A stretch of 64,000 nt of DNA from positions 121,080-185,079 of the forward strand of contig JAUQPH010000003.1 of the NCBI GenBank assembly GCA_030550455.1, given 5' to 3'. This stretch comes from Thermoproteota archaeon (GTDB lineage: Archaea; Thermoproteota; Thermoprotei_A; Sulfolobales; NBVN01). Shown one piece after another: positions 5,467-52,806 of the stretch. The first letter of the stretch is position 1. Every line of letters begins with the position of its first letter. The notes beneath the pieces are model-generated. The model ran no database searches. It saw only the letters and a program-made list of their open reading frames with translations, and was not told where the DNA came from. A program made the position numbers and the translations under genes.

Positions 5467-5569
5467 AGTCCAGCACCTCGATAGATAAGACGACCTAACT
5501 TAAAAGCTTGAAATGCGTTTGAGAACAAATTTCTGAGGTATAAGTGTAAGCTTATATACTTCCTCTATA

Positions 5570-5591
5570 CGTATGTATAGGGTATCCAAAT
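5570..5591 (+). promoter_or_regulatory. 22-nt B12-regulon candidate motif (btuF promoter)
   Basis: CGTATGTATAGGGTATCCAAAT; perfect reverse complement present at 20046-20067; lies between TATA-like CTTATATA (5551) and the btuF ATG. Confidence 0.7.
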
Positions 5592-6750
5592 GGTGGCTAG
5601 AAACGTAGCTCTCACTCTAGTGGTAGCACTCATGATGCTTGCGGCAGGCTTTGGAGTAGGCACATACCTCGCTGGAGGAACTGCTACGACAGCTATCATA
5701 ACCGAAATAAAGACCACTACCGTAGTTTTCACGGAGCGCTTAACTGAGCTAACAACAGTGGTCATGCCTGAAGCAAGAATCTCCGTTGTGGACGCCTTAG
5801 GGAGGGAGATAACTTTTGACAAACCACCTACTAGGGTAGTCTCACTAGCTCCATCGATAACAGAGATGCTTTTTGCTCTAGGACTCCAAGACAGAGTCGT
5901 AGGTGTTACGAGTCACTGCAATTACCCACCTGAAGTCCAGCAGCTAGTGAGTAAGGGAGAGATAGCGATAATAGGTGGCTTCTGGACACCAGACCTAGAG
6001 AAAATAGTTTCCCTTAAACCAGACCTCGTCATAGGTTCTGCTGGTACTCTACCACATCTCAAGCTCAAGGAGTCTCTCGAGCAGGTGGGTATCAAGGTGT
6101 TCTATACTAGGGCTGCGAGCGATAAGTACGACGTATACAGCGATATAAGAGCGCTTGCCAAAATCTTTAGAGTTGAGAGAGTCGCTGAAGAACTCATCAA
6201 CAGAATTGAGGCCGATATAAAGTCCGTAGAAACGTCCATACCTAAAGATGAGAAACCTAAGGTCCTCGTCCTCCTTGGACCTCCTGCGTGGGGTCTATAC
6301 TCAGCTGGAGGGAACACTTTCATGGGATGGCTAATAAGAACTGCTGGAGGGGTAAATATAGCAGATAAATTCACGGGCTGGCCTGTGCTAGACTACGATT
6401 TCATACTGTTACATGACCCGGACGTAATCATCATTAGTGCCATGGGTTTAAACTATACAACTCTATCGAAAGAGATCGGTGAAACTCCTTTAGCGCTAAC
6501 GAAAGCGTTCAAGAATGGTAAAGTGTACTTGGTAGACCAGGAGGCCAACGATATTCTTGTTCGACCTGGACCGAGGTTAGGTCTGGCCGTCAGGATGCTG
6601 GCCTCTATTCTGTTTCCCGACATATTTGAACCACCTAAAACTCCTGTAGTCTATAGAGTCGGTGAAGGCACTGGTAGCTTCAGTAGTGCTGGTACTACTA
6701 TCCGCTTGAGCACTGTTGAAATACTCCCGCGCATAGTATTTACTACGTGA
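5590..6750 (+). CDS. btuF: Corrinoid (B12) ABC transporter substrate-binding protein
   Basis: Signal/TM N-terminus then RVVSLAPSITEMLFALGLQDRVVGVTSHCNYPPEV, BtuF-type periplasmic binding domain. Confidence 0.85.
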   Translation: MVARNVALTLVVALMMLAAGFGVGTYLAGGTATTAIITEIKTTTVVFTERLTELTTVVMPEARISVVDALGREITFDKPPTRVVSLAPSITEMLFALGLQDRVVGVTSHCNYPPEVQQLVSKGEIAIIGGFWTPDLEKIVSLKPDLVIGSAGTLPHLKLKESLEQVGIKVFYTRAASDKYDVYSDIRALAKIFRVERVAEELINRIEADIKSVETSIPKDEKPKVLVLLGPPAWGLYSAGGNTFMGWLIRTAGGVNIADKFTGWPVLDYDFILLHDPDVIIISAMGLNYTTLSKEIGETPLALTKAFKNGKVYLVDQEANDILVRPGPRLGLAVRMLASILFPDIFEPPKTPVVYRVGEGTGSFSSAGTTIRLSTVEILPRIVFTT

Positions 6751-6760
6751 GGACCTACTT

Positions 6761-7795
6761 ATGGCCTATCAAATCGCTAGAATCAGTAAAACGAAATTCC
6801 TTTTACTAGTGTTAGCTCTCTCATCTTTACTCTTACTTCTTGCTGTGGTCTCTTTATCTGTGGGCTCATCGATGATACCTCCTTTCCAAGCTCTCTACTG
6901 CCTAGCGAGGGCTGAATGTAGCGAGACCACTAGGTTAATCTTAGGCCTGAGGGTTGCGCGTACAACAGCATCAATCCTCGTGGGGTGCATGCTAGCTGTG
7001 GCTGGAGTTTTAATACAGGGTATAACTAGGAACCCTCTAGCGGACCCCTTCATCCTAGGGATCTCGTCAACTGCTTTAGCAATACTCTCAGTAGCCTTAC
7101 TCGTCGATGTCAACATCCTCGCTCAGCGCCAGCTGGCTATATCAATAGCACTAGGGGGCGCTCTCCTAGGGTTCTTTATGACTACGTCAATTGGAGTTCT
7201 ATCAGGTGGAACAGTCCTCTCTTTAGTGCTGTCCGGGATTGCTGTTTCAGCCTTATTCTCCGGAGTTTCACACGTACTTCTCTACATGCTACAGGACAGA
7301 TTGAGGCATCCATATGTAAACCTACTCATGGGCTCTACGAGCGGTACCCTCGGGCGGGACATTCCGTACTTAGCCGTACCAGCGGTGCTCTCGCTTCTTG
7401 CTCTATACGCTCTAGGGATACCTAAGGCACTAAATGCTTACCTCTTCGGTGAACACCACGCAAGCCAGTTGGGGTATAGGGTTAAGCTGACTACGATTAC
7501 TTCAGCGTTCATAGCTAGCTTGCTAACTGGAGCCTCAGTTGCCGTAGTAGGGATAGTAGGTTTTATCGGCCTAGCAGGCCCACACATATCAAGAATGCTT
7601 TACGGGACATCCGACCACAGAGTCACTGTAGTTCTATCGGCGCTATCAGGTTCCGCCTTAGCTGTTTCAGCTGATATCGTAGCAAGACTCATCACCCTGT
7701 TTTCTACTCGAGGTGAACTACCCTTGGGGGTTGTTACAAGTATCATTGGAGCCCCGTTCTTAGCGTACCTTGTTATCAGAGGTGGGAGAAGTTGA
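6761..7795 (+). CDS. btuC: FecCD/BtuC-type ABC permease
   Basis: LGLRVARTTASILVGCMLAVAGVLIQGITRNPLADPFILGISS. Confidence 0.9.
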   Translation: MAYQIARISKTKFLLLVLALSSLLLLLAVVSLSVGSSMIPPFQALYCLARAECSETTRLILGLRVARTTASILVGCMLAVAGVLIQGITRNPLADPFILGISSTALAILSVALLVDVNILAQRQLAISIALGGALLGFFMTTSIGVLSGGTVLSLVLSGIAVSALFSGVSHVLLYMLQDRLRHPYVNLLMGSTSGTLGRDIPYLAVPAVLSLLALYALGIPKALNAYLFGEHHASQLGYRVKLTTITSAFIASLLTGASVAVVGIVGFIGLAGPHISRMLYGTSDHRVTVVLSALSGSALAVSADIVARLITLFSTRGELPLGVVTSIIGAPFLAYLVIRGGRS

Positions 7796-8586
7796 GAATA
7801 GAGTTAAAAAACGTCTCGTTTAGCTATAACTCAGTTAAGGCCGTAGATAAAGTATCTCTTGAAATAGACAGCGGTAAAACACTCTGCTTAGTAGGACCAA
7901 ACGGCTCAGGAAAGACTACGCTACTAAAACTGGTGGCCTCGCTAATAAGGCCTAAAGAGGGAGTTATCTACTTAGACGGTAAAGACTTAAAGACGTTCGA
8001 CATTAACGAGATCGCTAAAATGCTCTCATACTCGGACCCTCACCTACCGAGAACTTTACCGGCACGCGTTATTGATTTCATTCTCACGTCTAGGTATCCA
8101 TTCCATAAAGCGTTTCAGTACTTCGAGAGTAAGGATGACCTAGAGTTAGTCGACTTTCTGTCGAGAGAACTGAAGATATCGCACCTGCTCGACAGAAGGC
8201 TAGATCAACTAAGCAGCGGAGAACTGCAGAGAGTTGTAATAGCTGCAGCACTCGCTAAGAAACCTAAAGTACTTCTGCTAGACGAACCATCTGCTTTTCT
8301 TGACATAAGGTACCGCTTCGAGGTTATGGACATAGTCAAGAAGTATGTAGCTAAATACGGTGCGACATCTATAGTAGCCCTCCACGATATCAACATAGCC
8401 TCGCTGTACTGCGACACTGTAGCCCTCCTTAACAAAGGAAAAATAGTAGCCTGCGGACCACCAAGCGATGTCTTTTCATCAAAGGTCGTAGAGGAGGTCT
8501 ACGGAGTTAAAGTTGAGATTATCCAAGTAGGAAGCTATTACGTAGCATTCCCTCTACCAAACTATAGAGACCGGCAACACACCTAA
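7792..8586 (+). CDS. btuD: ABC transporter ATPase (corrinoid)
   Basis: GPNGSGKTT Walker A, LSSGELQRV signature, LLLDEPSAFLD Walker B; overlaps btuC. Confidence 0.9.
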   Translation: MRIELKNVSFSYNSVKAVDKVSLEIDSGKTLCLVGPNGSGKTTLLKLVASLIRPKEGVIYLDGKDLKTFDINEIAKMLSYSDPHLPRTLPARVIDFILTSRYPFHKAFQYFESKDDLELVDFLSRELKISHLLDRRLDQLSSGELQRVVIAAALAKKPKVLLLDEPSAFLDIRYRFEVMDIVKKYVAKYGATSIVALHDINIASLYCDTVALLNKGKIVACGPPSDVFSSKVVEEVYGVKVEIIQVGSYYVAFPLPNYRDRQHT

Positions 8587-19897: not shown

Positions 19898-20045
19898 ATC
19901 AGCACAGTAAGCGTAAAAAGCTCGAACAATCAGAACAGTTAAGACCATGGTGTCAGTACGCCCGTGTAATATAGAGTTTACCGCACTTTGCCTTAGAAGC
20001 TAACTCTAGCTAGGGTCTGCGGTAACTTCGTATTTCAACACTTAT

Positions 20046-20067
20046 ATTTGGATACCCTATACATACG
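20046..20067 (-). promoter_or_regulatory. 22-nt B12-regulon candidate motif (cobT promoter)
   Basis: ATTTGGATACCCTATACATACG on +, exact reverse complement of 5570-5591; abuts TATA-like CTTATATT and precedes ATG 20080. Confidence 0.7.
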
Positions 20068-20079
20068 TTGGTCCTAAAC

Positions 20080-21189
20080 ATGACAGAGTGCAGCATCGTT
20101 AAGGTTCTAGTGGGCAGAGAAACGTGGGAGAGGTTCATTTCACAAGGACTCGACAAGGTTATCTCAGTCTACTTCATTGCCTCGACCAAGGTGTCCACTA
20201 TCCCCGGTATAAGCCTTGCTGGAGCGAACCCTGAGCTAACTCTCTATACTCCAGCCCTCGACGTCGAGTACTTAACCTTAGGTGTACCAAAGTCGTTACC
20301 CGTAGTCCCGACGACACCAGATGGAATACCTACTCCGGCTCTACTAACGAAGGTGGCCCTAGAGCTCTCAGGAGTCCCGCACTTAGTCGTAGACTGTGGA
20401 AGCTATATAGACCCTCAGATACCTCACGTAGATATTCCAAGCAAAGTGGTTGGAGGGAGGATCGACCTCGAAGACTCTCTTACTCCAGAGGTTGCGTCTA
20501 AACTCTTCGAGGGTTCGAGGACTTTGGGAAAGATGCTGGGGGCTAGAAGTTCCCTCCTAGTAGTCGGTGAGTCTATGCCTGGTGGGACAACTACCGCCAT
20601 GGCCACCATGGAGGCGCTAGGCTATAGAGCAGTGGGAAGAGTGAGTAGTGCGAGTCCTTTAAATCCGCATGACCTTAAGAGAAGAGTCTTCGAGAGTGCT
20701 GTGAAAAGAGTAGGTAAGAGGCTCCCGCTAGCTGAAGCACTAGAGGCAGTGTGCCACTTCGGGGACCCCCTCCATATATCTATTACTGGTTTCCTCGCTG
20801 GAGCACTCGAGAGAGACGCTAGAGTTCTACTAGCGGGTGGTACTCAGATGTGTGCTGTACTCGCTTTAGCGAGAACTCTCGGTATACGCTTCGACGGTAG
20901 GGTGGCCATAGGCACAACTCGCTGGTTAGTTGAAGATAGAAGCTCAGACCTTTCTGGACTCGTCAAAGACATTTATCCAGAGGTTCCTGTAGTTTACGCA
21001 GATGTAGACTTCTCAAGCGTAGAGCATTGGGGGCTTAGAGCATACGAGGAAGGATACGTCAAGGAGGGAGTTGGAGCTGGTGGCACTCTAGTAATTAGCG
21101 CTCTTCTTAAAGACATTAGCTCGAGAGAACTGTTGAAGGCCGTGCAGGAAGAGTACGAGAGGATCACCAGCCTTGTCGGAAAGAGTTAG
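20080..21189 (+). CDS. cobT: UPF0284/CobT-like nicotinate-nucleotide phosphoribosyltransferase (track ORF starts 20068; ATG at 20080 preferred)
   Basis: GESMPGGTTTAMATMEALGYRAVGRVSSASPLNPH; first gene of the cobalamin operon. Confidence 0.85.
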   Translation: MTECSIVKVLVGRETWERFISQGLDKVISVYFIASTKVSTIPGISLAGANPELTLYTPALDVEYLTLGVPKSLPVVPTTPDGIPTPALLTKVALELSGVPHLVVDCGSYIDPQIPHVDIPSKVVGGRIDLEDSLTPEVASKLFEGSRTLGKMLGARSSLLVVGESMPGGTTTAMATMEALGYRAVGRVSSASPLNPHDLKRRVFESAVKRVGKRLPLAEALEAVCHFGDPLHISITGFLAGALERDARVLLAGGTQMCAVLALARTLGIRFDGRVAIGTTRWLVEDRSSDLSGLVKDIYPEVPVVYADVDFSSVEHWGLRAYEEGYVKEGVGAGGTLVISALLKDISSRELLKAVQEEYERITSLVGKS

Positions 21190-22279
21190 ACGCCTAGACT
21201 CAGATACGATACTGATAGAATTCGGCAGCCCCATGGTGGTAGTCTCAACACTTCCAGTGGTTACTCCCGACGGGCCTTCTAAAGGTGAAGTGGAGGCCAT
21301 AGTGTTCAAGAGAGTCACCAGCTATGACGTAGAGAACCCCATCAGGTACTACACGCGAGTCGCTAGAGAACTGGGCCTCAAGAAGACCCTAGTGGTCACA
21401 ACCTCAGTGTCTCTAGATGAAAAGTTTAGGTCTGTAAGAGTCGAGGAGGCCAATGCCAGTCTATACATGACCGTGAGCCTTAAGCCCCCGGTCTGCCTGG
21501 ATTCGACAACCTACCCCCCTCTTCTTCTCGGTACGATCAACGTAGTAGCAGTAGTCTACCTACCGCTAAGCTACAACGCTCTAGTAGACCTTGTTAGGAC
21601 TCTCACTGAAGCGAAGGCTTTAGCTTCATCCGACTCCCTACTACGGTGTAGGACTAGGTCGCCAGGTACTGTATCGGACTCTGTATCGGTCCTCAAGCCG
21701 TTGGGAGTAGGTGAGAGAATCGCCTTCGCCGGCATGGCTACAGATGTCGGGATGGCCCTAGCTAGAGCTGTTTATCGCGAAGTGTTAGGTGAGGCTCTCG
21801 GCAGGAGAACAGACGAGATCCTAGAGGAACTTACTGGAGTGAGCATCGGTAGACTGCTAGACTTATTCTTAGAGGTTTACTCCAGGTACCCTATACCAGG
21901 AGTAAGTATCTCTGAAGCGAGGTCCCTTGCACTTAGGTCTCTCGAGAAGGCCCTGCGCGACCCTAATGTCTGGGCCCTAATAATAGCGGCCAGAGAGCTA
22001 GACCTACACGGACTCGCGGGAAGTGTGCCTGGAGTAACTAAGGAGGAGTTCGCTAAAGACAGCAAGAGGATAGTTGCCGACGAGGTCATAGGCATGGCCT
22101 TAGCCACATATCTAGCCGGGCTCAACGGCTTGTTCACGATGTACTGGGTCGAGAGGCTGAAGGAGCGTGAGCTCGTTAACTACGGAGAGCTTGGCGTGTT
22201 CTTAGATGACGTTGTCTCGGCTTTGCTGGCGTACTTAGTAGTAGACTTACTCGCGAGGGTCGGTGGTAGTGGAGAGTAA
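21173..22279 (+). CDS. cbiS: CbiS-like bifunctional adenosylcobinamide amidohydrolase (CbiZ) / alpha-ribazole phosphatase (CobZ) fusion
   Basis: CbiZ-like N-half (VVSTLPVVTPDGPSKGE...GTINVVAVVYLPLSYNALVDLVRTLTEAKA) followed by a PgpA/CobZ-like helical C-half (VADEVIGMALATYLAGLNGLFTMYWVERLK...LDDVVSALLAYLVVDLLAR). Confidence 0.75.
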   Translation: MSERVRRLDSDTILIEFGSPMVVVSTLPVVTPDGPSKGEVEAIVFKRVTSYDVENPIRYYTRVARELGLKKTLVVTTSVSLDEKFRSVRVEEANASLYMTVSLKPPVCLDSTTYPPLLLGTINVVAVVYLPLSYNALVDLVRTLTEAKALASSDSLLRCRTRSPGTVSDSVSVLKPLGVGERIAFAGMATDVGMALARAVYREVLGEALGRRTDEILEELTGVSIGRLLDLFLEVYSRYPIPGVSISEARSLALRSLEKALRDPNVWALIIAARELDLHGLAGSVPGVTKEEFAKDSKRIVADEVIGMALATYLAGLNGLFTMYWVERLKERELVNYGELGVFLDDVVSALLAYLVVDLLARVGGSGE

Positions 22280-22793
22280 AATCGCATGCACCGTGATGGC
22301 CGGAGGTGAAGGAAGGAGGTTCGGTGACCCGGCGAAGTTCATGGCTGAGGTATGTGGAGAACCAATCCTCTCCAGGCTCGTTAGGCAACTGAAGAGGTTC
22401 TGCTCACATGTGGTGTTAGTGCTTACTCACAGGACGTGCGAGGTTTGCTCTACCTTCAGGGATGAGCCGTTTGTCAGCTGTGTCGAGCTTCCGGGGCGAG
22501 ACTACGTTGAAGACTTGAGCATCGTCCTAAGAGCCCTCCCGAAGCCACTGCTAGTAGTAGCAGCTGACCTAGTCGTGAGCGATAAGTCCCTGCTGGACTT
22601 CGTTGAAGTAGCTTTGAGGCTTCAGGCTAGCGTAGTAACTGCTGAGGCCGTTTATGGGAGTGAGTCTCAGCTTATAGGGCTCTCCATGTTCCACAAAGAA
22701 GGTGGAGCGTGGGTAAACGTCCCGATCGGCGGAAGCGCTGTAGATGTAGACGAGCGTGGTGATCTTGAGAGAGCTGAGAGGGTATGTAGGTAA
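22263..22793 (+). CDS. cobY: Adenosylcobinamide-phosphate guanylyltransferase
   Basis: VMAGGEGRRFGDPAKFMAEVCGEPIL nucleotidyltransferase; operon context. Confidence 0.85.
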   Translation: MVVESKIACTVMAGGEGRRFGDPAKFMAEVCGEPILSRLVRQLKRFCSHVVLVLTHRTCEVCSTFRDEPFVSCVELPGRDYVEDLSIVLRALPKPLLVVAADLVVSDKSLLDFVEVALRLQASVVTAEAVYGSESQLIGLSMFHKEGGAWVNVPIGGSAVDVDERGDLERAERVCR

Positions 22794-23883
22794 GTGTAGG
22801 AAGCACGGAGGTAGGGTACCGGAGGGTCGCTTAGACTTCTCTGCACCGCTTAATCCCCTAGGGCCTCCGGAGGTAATTAAGAGACTCATTCTTGAAGAAG
22901 TATCGAAAGGTGCTTACGGTAGGTACCCCGACTACGAGTACAATCGACTTCGAGAGGCGATTTCCGAATTCTACGACATCGAGGCGGACCAGGTAGTGCC
23001 GCTCAATGGGGCTAGCGAGGCCTTGTACCTACTCGTTCTAGCGCTTAGTCCGGACGCTTTAGTCGTTTTTGAGCCGACTTTCGGAGACCATAGATGCTTG
23101 TCTGAAGCCTTGGGACTGAGGACAGCGTCCGTGCTGTATTTCGAGTCTGGACTCAGCTACGAGCTACCGACGAGCGTTCTTAGGGGCGTGAGTGCTTCAA
23201 GCGGAGAGGGAGCTCTCGTACTGTTGTCTAACCCTAATAACCCGACTGGGGCTATACTCTCCGTAAAGAAGCTCGAAGAGGTTCTCGAGCTATTTGAAAA
23301 CTCTGTGGTAGTAGTCGACGAGGCTTATCTAGAGCTTTGTTACTCATGCGATACCGCAGGTGCTCTCAGGCTAGCGAAAAACTACGAGAACCTGGTCGTT
23401 CTTAGAAGCCTCACGAAGACGTACGCTGTTCCCGGTCTGAGGATAGGGTTTCTTTACACTTCGAACACCAAGCTGGCAAGCGTTATAGAAAACCTGAGGC
23501 CCCCGTGGAACGTTAACTCCATAGCTGAGAGAGTGTTTTCGACTGCGCTCAGAGAATACGCTGGAGAGCTAAGGTCTTTTATATCGCTATCTAGAGACGT
23601 GATTAAGTTTGAGGGAGAGTATCTTTCAGACAGGTTACGGTCCCTCGGACTGACGGTGTACACTTCTTCAGTCCCTTACGTCCTCGTAAGGCACGAGAAT
23701 ATCACGACTAGCGAGGTGATGAAGGTATTAACCCAGGTAGGTATCTACATTAGAGATGCTTCCACGTATCCAGGACTGACGCCTTATCACGCCAGGATCT
23801 CGGTAAGACTGAGAGACGAGAATGACGTCCTTATATCAGCATATAGAGAGGTGCTCCAAAGTGCGCATCTGCGGGAGGATTAG
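22756..23883 (+). CDS. cobD: CobD-type PLP-dependent L-threonine-O-3-phosphate decarboxylase / HisC-like
   Basis: LNGASEALYLLVLAL, SNPNNPTGA, VVDEAYLEL, RSLTKTYAVPGLRIG. Confidence 0.85.
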   Translation: MVILRELRGYVGKCRKHGGRVPEGRLDFSAPLNPLGPPEVIKRLILEEVSKGAYGRYPDYEYNRLREAISEFYDIEADQVVPLNGASEALYLLVLALSPDALVVFEPTFGDHRCLSEALGLRTASVLYFESGLSYELPTSVLRGVSASSGEGALVLLSNPNNPTGAILSVKKLEEVLELFENSVVVVDEAYLELCYSCDTAGALRLAKNYENLVVLRSLTKTYAVPGLRIGFLYTSNTKLASVIENLRPPWNVNSIAERVFSTALREYAGELRSFISLSRDVIKFEGEYLSDRLRSLGLTVYTSSVPYVLVRHENITTSEVMKVLTQVGIYIRDASTYPGLTPYHARISVRLRDENDVLISAYREVLQSAHLRED

Positions 23884-24655
23884 GGCGCTTATATCTCTAC
23901 TGACGAGAATACCCCTCGGAGGGCAGTCGATAGAAGAAGCTGCTGAGGTGTTCTTTCTCGTACCCTTAGTTGGAGCTCTAGAGGGACTCGTTGTGAGCTC
24001 AACGCTCACCCTCTTGGTATGGCTAGGCGTGAACCCGGTAATCGTGTCCGTCTTCTACGTCTTTATTCACATAGTGGTTACCGGCGGGATCCATCTAGAC
24101 GGCTTTGCCGATTACTCAGACGTCCTCGGCTCCCTTAAGCGGGGGGAGCAGGCCTTGCGGGTCTTGAAGGACCCGAGAAAGGGGACTTACGCCATAGTGG
24201 CAGTCTCGACGAGGTTGATTGTGGGAGTAGTGAGCCTGTATGTACTGATAGACGTCCTCGAGTTGAAGTTCGTTATCCCACTAATAGCATCTTATATAGC
24301 GTCAGCTGAGGCGATGTTCGTGAGTAGCTTCCTCGGTTTCGAAGAGCCCTATGAGGGTATGGCTAGGAGCTTTACCAGGCATTCGAAAAGCTTAGCACAC
24401 CTTTTCGGGAACACTCTGTGCTACTTGTTGCTATCCTCAGCCCTAGTAGTCTTGGGGAGTCTTGTCGGTATTAGAGTGAGCTCTGCCGCAACCCTCGCAC
24501 TCCCATTACTAGTTGGTTCCGTAGCTTCTTACGACGCAAACAAGAGGCTGGGATTCGTAAACGGAGATGTCCTAGGGTTCTCCTACGAGCTCACTAAGTC
24601 TGCATCCCTGACGTTAGTTGCGGTGCTGGTCTCGGCTAAAAACCCGGTGTGGTGA
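23822..24655 (+). CDS. cobS: Cobalamin-5'-phosphate synthase (GTG at 23861 is an alternative start)
   Basis: LLTRIPLGG..., GGIHLDGFADYSDVL...DPRKGTYAIV. Confidence 0.9.
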   Translation: MTSLYQHIERCSKVRICGRIRALISLLTRIPLGGQSIEEAAEVFFLVPLVGALEGLVVSSTLTLLVWLGVNPVIVSVFYVFIHIVVTGGIHLDGFADYSDVLGSLKRGEQALRVLKDPRKGTYAIVAVSTRLIVGVVSLYVLIDVLELKFVIPLIASYIASAEAMFVSSFLGFEEPYEGMARSFTRHSKSLAHLFGNTLCYLLLSSALVVLGSLVGIRVSSAATLALPLLVGSVASYDANKRLGFVNGDVLGFSYELTKSASLTLVAVLVSAKNPVW

Positions 24656-25592
24656 GATCATTCAGTGCTACTTCCTTGACTACCTACTTGTGCTTCTCCT
24701 CGCTACACTCATGGACTTCGCATACCCTTACCACACGGGACTCCTTCTACGTATACACCCAGTCCATACGTCCTACGTAATGGCCATCAAGCTCTGGAGG
24801 CCCTTCTCCTCGAGAGTTAGGGGAGTAGCTATATGGATTGCTGTAGTCTTGCTACACCTACTTGCCTACTCTCTCTTAGTTTACTCCTCTCTCGTCAACA
24901 GACTCCTCTTCATAGTTATCTCGGCCTACGTCTTAAAGACGTCGTTCTCTCTCAGGCTATTGTTAGACATAGTCGAGAGAGTTGCTGTATGCCTAAAGAG
25001 CGGGGACTTAGAGGGTGCTAGGTTCTGGGTGCGCCATATAGTGAGGAGAGACGTAAAGAACCTGGGGGAGCCACACCTAGCTTCTGCGGCCATAGAGTCG
25101 CTAGCGGAGAGTCTTGTCGACGGCTATGTCTCTCCACTATTCTACTACATCATCTTCGGTCCCCTCGGAGCCTTGTTCCAGAGAATTGTGAACACCCTCG
25201 ATAGTGCTCTGGGATACAAAGAGCCTAGTTTTAGAGATGCCGGCTGGTTTTCGGCGAAGGTAGACACGGTGGTAAATTATATCCCAGCTAGAGTCACAGG
25301 GCTACTCATAGCCATAGCCTCCTTGGCCTCTGGAGGCAGAATTAGGGAGGTAGTTAAGACGATGATAAAAGAGCATGGCAGAACAGAGAGCGTCAACGCA
25401 GGTTATCCTATGTCCGCCATGGCTGGAGCTCTCAATGTTAAGTTGGAGAAAATCGGGTACTACACCATAAACGGCAGTGCCAGGTGGCCTGGGTGGTCCG
25501 ACGTATTGAGAGCTCTTAGAGTGGCCAAACTTGCCGTAGTTCTATGGTTAGCTACATCTGTAGGAATTATACTTATAGCAAGCGGCTTATGA
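24618..25592 (+). CDS. cbiB: Adenosylcobinamide-phosphate synthase (true start probably downstream, about 24688)
   Basis: MDFAYPYHTGLLLRIHPV; RRDVKNLGEPHLASAAIESLAESLVDGYVSPLFYYIIFGPLGAL; GYPMSAMAGALNVKLEKIG. Confidence 0.9.
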   Translation: MRCWSRLKTRCGEIIQCYFLDYLLVLLLATLMDFAYPYHTGLLLRIHPVHTSYVMAIKLWRPFSSRVRGVAIWIAVVLLHLLAYSLLVYSSLVNRLLFIVISAYVLKTSFSLRLLLDIVERVAVCLKSGDLEGARFWVRHIVRRDVKNLGEPHLASAAIESLAESLVDGYVSPLFYYIIFGPLGALFQRIVNTLDSALGYKEPSFRDAGWFSAKVDTVVNYIPARVTGLLIAIASLASGGRIREVVKTMIKEHGRTESVNAGYPMSAMAGALNVKLEKIGYYTINGSARWPGWSDVLRALRVAKLAVVLWLATSVGIILIASGL

Positions 25593-26302: not shown

Positions 26303-27519
26303 GAAAGCTTCACCACTATGTCTGGACCTAGGAACCTAGCCACTCTTGCGTCGTGTGTAGAGAACACAACCGACTTACCAGCCCTCCTGGCTTCATTGAA
26401 GGCACCACTAACGCACTCTATGGATGTGTCATCAAGACCTAACGATACTTCATCTACAACGACTAGGTCGCTAGTACCGTAAATGCCTGCGTATACGGAT
26501 AACCTCCTTATCTCCCCTAGGCTTAAGGCAGTACTGCTTGTGTTACTAACACCGACAAGACCTATGACGCTTGGATCGCAACCTAAGGCTTTCAGTGCTG
26601 AGACTACGTCACCGTTCATCCAGTAGCTCGACAGCTGAGGTACATAGAAAGCGCGCCTGTAATGCCTTCTAACAATACCCGAGCTAGGCTTTAATAACCC
26701 CAGGAGGACTCTCAATAGGGTCGTCTTCCCAGAGCCGTTTGAACCGACGACTGCCACTACCATCCCGCTATCTACTCTCAAGTCTAATCCGTCGAACACT
26801 TTAGTATTGGAGTACCTGAACCCGAGGTTGCGAGCCTCCAGGAGGACTCCTCTGGAAGCTTCAGTAGTGAGCCTAGAGTTCGAGCACCTCGTTTTAGAGC
26901 CTAGGTCGATCATTCCGTCTACCTTACTAGCGTAGTAGCCGAGCTTGTGGTCCAACACCACGACAACAGAACCGGACTTGACCGCGTAGTCCCGAAGCAC
27001 TTCGAGAACCTCTCCGAGGGTTTCTGGGTCTAGGTAGCCGGAAGGCTCGTCGACGACGACTAGCTTCTTATTTAACAGTAGTGAGAGCCCTGTCAGCACC
27101 CTAAACCTCTCTCCTGCTGATAGCTTCCTTATCTCCCTAAACATTAGGTCGCCTACGAGCCTCCTGAGTTCTGGCACTCTGTGGTGAAGTCCGTAGATGA
27201 AGAGCTCTTCGGCGGCGCTCGTGGTTAAGGTAGCCAGAGAGATGTCCTGAGGCACATAAGCGACGAGCCCGCGACGTAGAGCGTCTGCGGGTCTGTAGCC
27301 GAACACCTCAACCACCCCACTAACTCTATAGCCTCTGTAGAGCTCGGGAGCTAGGCCTACCACCACTCGGGCGAGCGTAGTCTTTCCCGTCCCACAGTCG
27401 CCACTCACTAGCCACAGTGTTCCGGGCTCCATCTCGAAGTCGAGCTCCTTAACGACCTCTCTACTCCCGATCCACACCGACAGATTCTTAGCGCGTACAC
27501 CCCTCAATGGTGTTAACAC
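26299..27519 (-). CDS. ecfA: ECF transporter ATPase with two fused ABC domains
   Basis: Two Walker A motifs (GDCGTGKTT, GSNGSGKTT), two signature motifs (LSAGERFRV, LSLGEIRRL), two Walker B motifs (VVVDEPSGYLD, VVVDEVSLGLD). Confidence 0.9.
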   Translation of the reverse strand: MLTPLRGVRAKNLSVWIGSREVVKELDFEMEPGTLWLVSGDCGTGKTTLARVVVGLAPELYRGYRVSGVVEVFGYRPADALRRGLVAYVPQDISLATLTTSAAEELFIYGLHHRVPELRRLVGDLMFREIRKLSAGERFRVLTGLSLLLNKKLVVVDEPSGYLDPETLGEVLEVLRDYAVKSGSVVVVLDHKLGYYASKVDGMIDLGSKTRCSNSRLTTEASRGVLLEARNLGFRYSNTKVFDGLDLRVDSGMVVAVVGSNGSGKTTLLRVLLGLLKPSSGIVRRHYRRAFYVPQLSSYWMNGDVVSALKALGCDPSVIGLVGVSNTSSTALSLGEIRRLSVYAGIYGTSDLVVVDEVSLGLDDTSIECVSGAFNEARRAGKSVVFSTHDARVARFLGPDIVVKLS

Positions 27520-28141
27520 CTCTACTCAAGAGAAGGGCGTATACCCTCTTAGATGCGAGGACAGCTAGGAGATGGTCCATCAGTATGTCCTGTGGTAGGA
27601 ATGCGAGCACGGCAGCAAACAACACGACCACCTCCGAGCTCCCATGCAAGCCGAAGAGCGCTGAGACTGCTCTAGCCCAGTCTAGTAAGCCCGTTGAGGA
27701 TAGAGCATAGTACCGAAAGACGAGGTACCCGAGTACATACGTCGGGACCATTCCAACGCTTGAGATAGCAGTAAGGATGGCAACATCTCTAGTACGTAGG
27801 GCTTCTAGACTCCTCCCAACTAACCTTAAGTAGGACCTAGAGAGAGCTGAAACCACGGGTGCTGAAAGCAGAAATCCCCATATGTAGCCGCCGGTGTAGC
27901 CAAACAGCAGGTGCGGTCCTCCCCTGAACCCTGCTCCTACCGGAAGAACAAAAGCGATCATAATGATGTAGAGTAAGACGGAAAGAGCGGCTTCAGCGGG
28001 AGAGAGTACCAGGGAAGTGAGGACGACTCCAAAGTTCTGAAAGGTGTAGGGTACTGGACCCACATTGAACTTCAACCACGCACCCACCGCTATAGTTGAC
28101 GCTCCGAACGCTATCAGCACGTACCGCTGAAGAGATCGCAT
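27488..28141 (-). CDS. bioY: Biotin ECF transporter S component BioY
   Basis: PVPYTFQNFGVVLTSLVLSP; GGYIWGFLLSAPVV. Confidence 0.85.
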   Translation of the reverse strand: MRSLQRYVLIAFGASTIAVGAWLKFNVGPVPYTFQNFGVVLTSLVLSPAEAALSVLLYIIMIAFVLPVGAGFRGGPHLLFGYTGGYIWGFLLSAPVVSALSRSYLRLVGRSLEALRTRDVAILTAISSVGMVPTYVLGYLVFRYYALSSTGLLDWARAVSALFGLHGSSEVVVLFAAVLAFLPQDILMDHLLAVLASKRVYALLLSRGVNTIEGCTR

Positions 28142-28186
28142 ATGAGACCGTTCACTTCAGTTTTGGAAAAATATAAAAAGCTATAG

Positions 28187-28199
28187 GTTAACAGTTAAC
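28187..28199. promoter_or_regulatory. Candidate BirA operator
   Basis: GTTAACAGTTAAC dyad between the shared AT-rich TATA region (28168-28180) and the birA ATG 28203. Confidence 0.5.
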
Positions 28200-28202
28200 T
28201 GT

Positions 28203-29162
28203 ATGTTTGCGAGGACCGCGGAGCTAGTCTTAACGAGACTGAGAGGAGGTAGGTTAGTGAGTGGTGAGTCACTGGCATCAGAGCTTGGAGTATCTAGGAC
28301 GTACGTACACAAGGTGGTCAATTGGCTCAGGAGGTGGGGTATCCCCATAGTAGCTGAGCCAGGTCTCGGGTACTACATACCTCTCGAGAACGACATAGCG
28401 AAGACCGTGGGGCTCCTGAGAGTAGTGGGGGTCGAGGCTTTAGTCACGCATATAGAGAAGTGCGTTAAGTCGTCTCAGGATATCGCTAGAGAGTTAGCCG
28501 CAGCGGGAGCCGGTAGCTGGGTGGTCGTCGTATGTGATGAAATGGTGACTGGTAGGGGTAGGCTCGGGCGTACGTGGTACGCACCACGCGGAGGTCTGTG
28601 GTTTACGGTTATATTAAGACCCGAGTTCACTGGACCCCTACATCTCTTGAGCTTAGCGGCGGGAGTCTCTGTTGCCGAGTCTCTAATAGCTTTACTCGGT
28701 GTGCAAGCTCGCGTTAAGTGGCCTAACGACGTCTTAGTCGACGATAAGAAAGTCTGCGGAATACTAATAGAGGGAGAGGCCGAGGCGGATAGGATAAAGT
28801 TGCTGTATCTAGGAATCGGGATCAACGCAAATAACGAGCTTCCACCAGAGGTTCGTGAAACAGCTACATCCATCCGCAACTTGGTTGGTGCTGAAGTTCC
28901 TCGAGCAACTCTTTTAGCAGTGATACTATCTAGGCTTAAGTCGTACTATAGCTACCTCTCAATTGGAAGAGCAGATAAAGTCATCAATTCTTGGGAAAAG
29001 CTCTCAGCAACTGTAGGTAAAACAGTGCGGGTCGTAACATTAGGTGGTGGGGAGATCGTTGGGCGCGCAGTAGCCGTCGACCGACTTGGAAGACTAGTCG
29101 TGGAGATGTCAGGGGTTAGGTACCACATAGAGTCTGGAGACGTTTACCACCTAAAGCAATAG
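28203..29162 (+). CDS. birA: Biotin-protein ligase with N-terminal HTH (BirA-type regulator)
   Basis: wHTH LASELGVSRTYVHKVVNWLRRWGI; GRGRLGRTWYAPRGGLWFT; KWPNDV; GILIEG. Confidence 0.95.
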   Translation: MFARTAELVLTRLRGGRLVSGESLASELGVSRTYVHKVVNWLRRWGIPIVAEPGLGYYIPLENDIAKTVGLLRVVGVEALVTHIEKCVKSSQDIARELAAAGAGSWVVVVCDEMVTGRGRLGRTWYAPRGGLWFTVILRPEFTGPLHLLSLAAGVSVAESLIALLGVQARVKWPNDVLVDDKKVCGILIEGEAEADRIKLLYLGIGINANNELPPEVRETATSIRNLVGAEVPRATLLAVILSRLKSYYSYLSIGRADKVINSWEKLSATVGKTVRVVTLGGGEIVGRAVAVDRLGRLVVEMSGVRYHIESGDVYHLKQ

Positions 29163-31383: not shown

Positions 31384-31680
31384 AGAGATCTGCTACTGAT
31401 TATAATATAAGTTAGTTATATGCGGATAAGATAAACGAAGCTACTAACGCACTATTTTAATGTAACACGTATCGTGGTCAAACGATGAGGATATCTAGCA
31501 CATCTTCAGACTCCCACGTGTTAGGTAAGCAAGCGCTAGCGAGAGTCCATCACGCAACTGTTTCGGTTTTCATATCTGTTGATCGGTTGGTGTTGATCGA
31601 AACACTTGTGAACACCTTATGCAGATATATGTGGAGGTACCTAGATGAGGAGTCGAGAGTTGCTTGATGCTCTAGATGAC

Positions 31681-31815
31681 GGCTCTCCCCGAGGTACTCA
31701 AGGCGAGGGTGCTAGGGGCCGCCCCCGAGCCCGGTGAGGTCCCGAGTGGAATGCGGGGGAAAGAGATGAGGCGATGAAGTCAACCAATACAAACCTATAT
31801 AAGAGCTGAACCCTT
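31681..31815 (+). repeat. Dispersed intergenic element, copy A
   Basis: GGCTCTCCCCGAGGTACTCAAGG (shared 23 nt with copy B) ... GAATGCGGGGGAAAGAGATGAGGCGATGAAGTCAACCAATACAAACCTATATAAGAGCTGAACCCTT; homologous to 52546-52690(-), 59264-59381(+), 45287-45372(-). Confidence 0.75.
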
Positions 31816-31945
31816 AGACAGTGAGCTAAGGTTTCTAGTGACTAATGCGGTTTCCTTAGCTATCTGCGGGTTTGCTCAAAGTTTATCGAGTACTCAAAGC
31901 TTTTAAGCCGTAAATAGAGTAGTTATCGAAGATCGTGCCTATGAG

Positions 31946-52512: not shown

Positions 52513-52545
52513 GGTTTAAATTATCGTATGTTAACCTACACTTAC

Positions 52546-52690
52546 GGGGTTCATCCCCTATATAGGTTCGTGCTGGTCAGTGCCATCGCTCCATTCTCTC
52601 TCCCCAGCATTGGTCTTGGGTTCTCGTCGGGCTCGGGAGCGTTTGGGGCGACCCCTAGCACTCCACACCTTGAGTACCTCGGGGAGAGCC
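52546..52690 (-). repeat. Dispersed intergenic element, copy B
   Basis: Reverse complement: GGCTCTCCCCGAGGTACTCAAGG...GTGCTAGGGGTCGCCCC...CCGAGCCCG...AATGCTGGGGAGAGAGAATGGAGCGATGGCACTGACCAGCACGAACCTATATAGGGGATGAACCCC. Confidence 0.75.
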
Positions 52691-52806
52691 TCGATGAGCT
52701 CTTAACCCCTTATCGAGCTACTTTCACACATACCCCTACGCACGTGGTACTTACAAGCGTCTCTGTCTATACGTTAACAGACTAAGAAATCTAAAACAGC
52801 TATATC

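Follow-up and report, generated by a model that had tools for sequence, protein, structure and literature searches.

Gene content of the window

The window, meaning the whole 64,000-nt stretch of DNA analyzed here, carries two groups of genes for handling vitamin B12 (Table 1). One encodes a BtuFCD-type importer and the other a salvage operon of CobT, CbiZ, CobY, CobD, CobS, and CbiB type; these identities agree with those given in the first-pass annotation of the same DNA. Archaeal CobZ is a PgpA-like protein, so that the cbiZ gene with its phosphatase domain may represent a CbiZ–CobZ fusion. A short shared element, which we interpret as a putative operator, is found next to a TATA-like box at the start of each gene group.

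Table 1 Features of the B12 loci in the window, with putative operators and predicted promoter elements
Feature	Position	Strand	Remarks
TATA-like box of btuF	5551..5558	+	CTTATATA; 26 bp upstream of operator centre
Putative operator at btuF	5569..5591	+	17-bp core 5573-5589, ATGTATA-GGG-TATCCAA; right half consensus, left half degenerate
btuF	5590..6750	+	substrate-binding protein (Peripla_BP_2)
btuC	6761..7795	+	FecCD-type permease
btuD	7792..8586	+	ABC ATPase
TATA-like box of cobT	20041..20048	+	CTTATATT; 3-nt overlap with operator; 11 bp upstream of operator centre
Putative operator at cobT	20046..20068	-	core 20048-20064, + strand TTGGATA-CCC-TATACAT; same 23 nt as at btuF, opposite orientation
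cobT	20080..21189	+	NaMN-dependent phosphoribosyltransferase (TIGR00303)
cbiZ	21173..22279	+	C-terminal PgpA-type phosphatase domain
cobY-like	22263..22793	+	nucleotidyltransferase (NTP_transf_3)
cobD-like	22756..23883	+	aminotransferase; best NCBIfam match threonine-phosphate decarboxylase CobD, below cut-off
cobS	23822..24655	+	
cbiB	24618..25592	+	

An element shared by two promoters

The exact 22-mer reported earlier at 5570–5591 (+) and 20046–20067 (−) is present, and its identity extends to 23 nt, with 5569–5591 matching the reverse complement of 20046–20068 on the opposite strand. Only one other inverted pair of at least 20 nt occurs in the window. Approximately 1e-4 exact 22-nt inverted pairs are expected in a random 64 kb sequence, in keeping with the original view that a chance pair is very unlikely. 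No third copy with up to three mismatches was detected in the window (0 in 100 shuffles), nor any further copy at this threshold in the 1.65-Mb genome, the assembly of which is ~88% complete. The search for copies at unrelated loci, which had been recommended from the outset, therefore gives no support to a general repeat. The btuF site lies between its TATA-like box and the start codon, as first described, and reaches into the ATG at 5590. For cobT, the site does adjoin a TATA-like box, and overlaps it slightly, but the gap from the end of the 22-mer to the ATG at 20080 is 12 nt rather than the 13 nt originally given.

Palindromic structure

At the btuF and cobT genes of related genomes there are variants with up to three mismatches to the 22-mer (for example CATTTGGATAGGGTATCCAAAT, CGTTTGGATAGGGTATCCAAAT, and CATATGGATAGGGTATCCATAT), and from these forms we conclude that the element is a palindrome, WTTGGAYA-N3-TRTCCAAW, and not a directional motif. 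The site of the window genome combines a consensus half, TATCCAAAT, with a degenerate half, GTATGTATA, and perfect palindromes are located at the same genes in its congeners. Because a palindrome reads alike on both strands, no special explanation is required for the inverted arrangement of the two copies, and the orientation that the first-pass annotation had presented as a feature carries no functional meaning of its own. Nor do the three GTAT units emphasized there form the core of the element; they fall mostly inside the degenerate half, and relatives display the palindrome instead.

Among 91 sites, a set that was assembled by consensus search and is thus biased towards the consensus and includes a few chance matches, the inner positions of both half-sites were nearly invariant and the spacer variable, as expected for two-fold symmetry. 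Independent support for symmetry comes from the btuF and cobT palindromes of congeners, which were found with the window’s own 22-mer. The centres of the half-sites are about one helical turn apart.

Distribution within and beyond Sulfolobales

The pattern WTGGATANSNTATCCAW was searched in 214 genomes of Sulfolobales (the order taken in the GTDB sense), where 68 exact sites, counted from the table of matches, compare with 7 for a reversed control pattern. Outside the order, the phylum sample (195 genomes) gave 13 matches against 10 for the control, a background level, and none of these was located at a recognizable B12 gene. Within the phylum sample, the window genome holds the highest count of the reversed control pattern itself, at five. 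At up to two mismatches the window genome as a whole contains 6 palindrome sites compared with 13 for the control, and thus no excess. In a collection of named genomes, archaeal matches were found at btuF or cobT, and bacterial matches occurred in about the number expected by chance.

Conservation is strongest in the window’s own family, where btuF is present in all 31 genomes. A site with up to two mismatches was detected in 27 of the 29 btuF promoters that had enough upstream sequence, spanning all 11 genera. These sites sit between a TATA-like box and the start codon, and composition shuffles of the same stretches reached their scores in ≤2% of cases each. The two exceptions are G008, with three mismatches, and G003, a member of the same genus as the window genome in which little of the btuF site is left (four mismatches). 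The ortholog comparison that the first-pass annotation had proposed thus finds the btuF site in nearly the whole family and the cobT site within the genus. Among other families, the site is present at btuF in f3, f4, f5, f10, and f11, takes the form TTGGACA-N3-TGTCCAA in f9, and is weak in single f7 and f8 genomes; no recognizable site accompanies the btuF-like genes of families f2 and f6 and of some members of f7 and f8. The regulon is probably ancestral to Sulfolobales.

Genes carrying the site

Of 64 distinct exact sites inspected within the order, about 57 were located at gene starts; 55 had been assigned automatically to a target gene start, and L055 and L057 were added as lying upstream of NiCoT genes. 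Targets were btuF (24), the cobalt/nickel permease gene NiCoT (12), a cbiX-cbiC fusion that heads a cbi operon (7), bluB (4), an APC permease (3), btuC (2), the class III ribonucleotide reductase gene nrdD (2), an MFS transporter (2), and cobT (1). Target families were checked with Pfam and NCBIfam (NicO, CbiX plus CbiC, BluB, NRDD, and MM_CoA_mutase). Sites with one mismatch add further cases of btuF, btuC, bluB, and APC as well as cobD and a cobN-like gene, the last named from sequence inspection. In three f5 genomes the site separates a btuF-like gene from a divergently oriented methylmalonyl-CoA mutase gene. Single genomes share the element among several loci, namely btuF and cobT in the window and btuF, btuC, NiCoT, cbiX-cbiC, and bluB in G205.

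Recurrence of the site at B12 and cobalt genes across Sulfolobales indicates that it marks a gene circuit that is probably B12-responsive. The presence of nrdD, bluB, and the de novo operon suggests that the common theme is B12 and not just transport. Of the four family genomes that possess nrdD, two have the site there, suggesting that the nrdD branch is lineage-specific. Counting against a B12 regulon, the APC and MFS transporter genes that carry the site have no known link to B12. The patchy occurrence at nrdD, the degenerate left half in the window genome, the poor site of G003, and the families with siteless btuF-like genes weigh in the same direction. The APC-family permease of Sulfolobaceae begins with MDSLSK or a similar sequence (L047, L051, L071, L160, L171, L173, and L339), and the operator-like sequence overlaps these first codons, so its conservation may be driven in part by the protein. 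Either this permease is a B12-linked transporter or the overlap is a coding coincidence. A perfect operator sequence is found upstream of the MFS transporter gene of L012 and L013 (family f5), making its product a candidate B12-related transporter.

Position relative to predicted promoters

Distances from the centre of the predicted TATA box to the centre of the site are bimodal, at 23–27 bp (~26) or 11–14 bp (~12), and the window holds one site of each class. The longer spacing, found mainly in the window’s family and represented by btuF in the window (26), puts the predicted transcription start inside the site. The shorter spacing is found mainly in f11 and includes cobT in the window (11); here the distance from TATA box to start codon is commonly ~26 bp, which fits leaderless transcription. 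A minority of sites have no clear TATA box at either distance. Most sites lie inside predicted core promoters, with the starts likewise placed by prediction. The NiCoT promoters of G050, G210, and G212 contain two copies 27–29 bp apart that flank the TATA box. Transcription is not expected to include the upstream copy, which argues that the element acts as DNA. Sequence comparison establishes the palindrome, the set of genes that carry it, where it lies with respect to predicted promoter elements, and how well it is conserved.

Proposed regulon and alternative readings

We consider it likely that the site is the operator of a cobalamin regulon and is bound by a cobalamin-responsive repressor acting as a dimer; what we infer here is the protein and its class, repression as the mode of action, and B12 as the effector. 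A dimeric transcription factor, probably of the winged-helix type, would bind WTTGGAYA-N3-TRTCCAAW. At the ~26-bp sites, such as that of btuF, it would cover the transcription start, and at the ~12-bp sites, such as that of cobT, the stretch between the TATA box and the start. Once bound, the factor could block assembly of the initiation complex or the start site, as has been shown for YtrA_Sa of Sulfolobus acidocaldarius, an experimentally demonstrated repressor whose semi-palindromic motif lies over the transcription start (PMC6746942). We hypothesize that plentiful cobalamin, or a signal derived from it, would jointly switch off the importer, both the salvage and the de novo pathway, and the cobalt permease, and that certain lineages would extend this control to the B12-independent class III ribonucleotide reductase. 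The chances seem about even for the most far-reaching version of this model, in which an undescribed archaeal cobalamin-sensing DNA-binding protein would control B12 uptake, salvage, and synthesis, cobalt import, and some nrdD genes through one palindrome in two geometries throughout Sulfolobales. If true, B12 would be sensed by a repressor with no relation to CarH or riboswitches.

The strongest competing possibility, although an unlikely one, leaves the operator and regulon as they are and has the regulator sense cobalt or another metal instead of cobalamin. The NiCoT permease is among the commonest targets, and the importer and chelatase genes would also fit a cobalt response. However, free cobalt plays no part in the steps associated with cobT, bluB, cobD, and nrdD, all of which carry sites, and nrdD is the classic partner of the B12-dependent ribonucleotide reductase. 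With these genes among the targets, cobalamin is favoured over cobalt as the signal.

It is improbable that the site instead binds an activator that stimulates transcription when B12 is scarce. Some archaeal factors do activate, and the sign of regulation is not readable from sequence alone. Known archaeal activators mostly bind upstream of the TATA box and BRE, which weighs against such a reading. Moreover, most of our sites are located between TATA box and start codon, resembling the arrangement of the repressor YtrA_Sa, whose motif covers the start (PMC6746942).

Very little speaks for an RNA element, i.e., a riboswitch or a leader hairpin at the mRNA 5' end. In its favour, a palindromic sequence is able to fold into a hairpin, and sites of the 26-bp class would be partly transcribed. 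Yet nothing in the window matched Rfam at the gathering threshold, including the cobalamin riboswitch families; the site is just 17–23 bp long with the start codon immediately after it; and the 12-bp class ends before the predicted start, with tandem copies flanking the TATA box at some promoters. The original preference for a DNA operator over a riboswitch is therefore upheld. Finally, the notion that the two copies are a product of chance or a mobile repeat, for which their small number is the sole argument, can be discarded because the genome holds just these two copies and the same promoters keep the site in other genera and families, a conservation that rules it out.

Candidate regulators

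No general regulator was found among the candidates considered, and four types were tested and rejected. The first is a fusion of a B12-binding domain to a DNA-binding domain: the sole B12-binding-domain protein of the window genome and of G050 looks like a methylmalonyl-CoA mutase subunit. In the window genome (assembly ~88% complete) this single PF02310 protein has 144 aa, adjoins mutase genes, and shows no fusion to a DNA-binding domain. Second, the Lrs14-like gene divergent from btuF in G205 has many paralogues in f11, and none were found in f1. Third, genus g10 has a Tfx-like gene and a gene for a 151-aa wHTH protein close to btuF, but neither was found in the other loci examined. For membrane-bound HTH genes, located in the window or close to NiCoT, local synteny was the only indication.

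Regulators of the Lrp/AsnC type are compatible with short palindromes whose half-sites are separated by a few bases. A tandem Lrp-like gene immediately precedes btuF in G040 and G186; in G050 and G191 it lies ~10 kb away from btuF. The encoded protein has 256 aa and two Lrp/AsnC-type HTH domains (L224:9959-10729 in G040 and L073:2289-3059 in G186), with 1–4 paralogues in f11 genomes; its AlphaFold model is poor (mean pLDDT 60). Because the protein is full-length in f11 only, it cannot serve the window’s family and was rejected as the general regulator. It could be a family-specific player.

Relation to known systems

Bacterial cobalamin riboswitch regulons follow the same target logic, comprising importer, cobalt transport, biosynthesis, and B12-independent isozymes. 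Those riboswitches, however, are large RNA aptamers in mRNA leaders, whereas the element described here is a short DNA palindrome at promoters predicted to be leaderless or nearly so. CarH-type bacterial repressors likewise tie control by DNA binding to cobalamin, but CarH joins a B12-binding domain to a MerR-type DNA-binding domain, and no such fusion was found in the window genome or in G050. Rodionov et al. reportedly described in 2003 (J Biol Chem) a CBL-box, the DNA signal of a hypothetical B12 regulator in some archaea. The likeness is that of a motif reportedly found by comparative genomics upstream of archaeal cobalamin genes with no known regulator. No other pairing of the CBL-box with archaea was found in the literature searched, and our motif may have been anticipated in part or whole by it. 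The first-pass annotation spoke of a possible novel cobalamin regulon; the regulon stands, and its novelty is at best partial given that a hypothetical archaeal B12 regulator had reportedly been proposed in 2003. As far as could be checked, the additions made here are the order-wide extent, the target list with nrdD, bluB, and NiCoT, and the two promoter geometries. The YtrA_Sa operator is similar in being a (semi-)palindromic site at the transcription start but differs in its association with membrane-protein genes, its 14-bp core motif, and its GntR-family regulator, and the text searched contained no link to cobalamin (PMC6746942).

As far as the literature was searched, no protein-level account of B12 control in crenarchaea was found. 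The present results define an operator sequence, delimit the genes that belong to it, and list its targets in a species open to genetic manipulation, so that the regulator can be isolated and the response to B12 tested directly. For annotation, the motif could separate B12 importers from look-alike siderophore importers, and it suggests that the NiCoT permeases of Sulfolobales serve cobalt for B12. A 2009 survey found BtuFCD systems hard to tell apart and the functions of most archaeal NiCoT permeases unclear (PMC2667541).

Other features of the window

A GC-rich intergenic element occurs in the window as two diverged copies 21 kb apart, at 31640–31830 (+) and 52530–52720 (−), with a mean column identity of 82% and one exact 23-nt stretch. 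It gave no Rfam match, the first copy not even at a relaxed threshold. The first copy also had no plasmid match, its 23-mer had none in viral contigs, and neither copy folds significantly better than shuffled sequences. Separately, at 27488–29162, a BioY-like gene is divergent from a BirA-like gene with an N-terminal HTH, the two being ~60 bp apart (both named by sequence inspection), and ECF-type transporter genes adjoin the pair. The BirA-like protein and the ~60-bp divergent region are possibly a biotin regulator and its operator.
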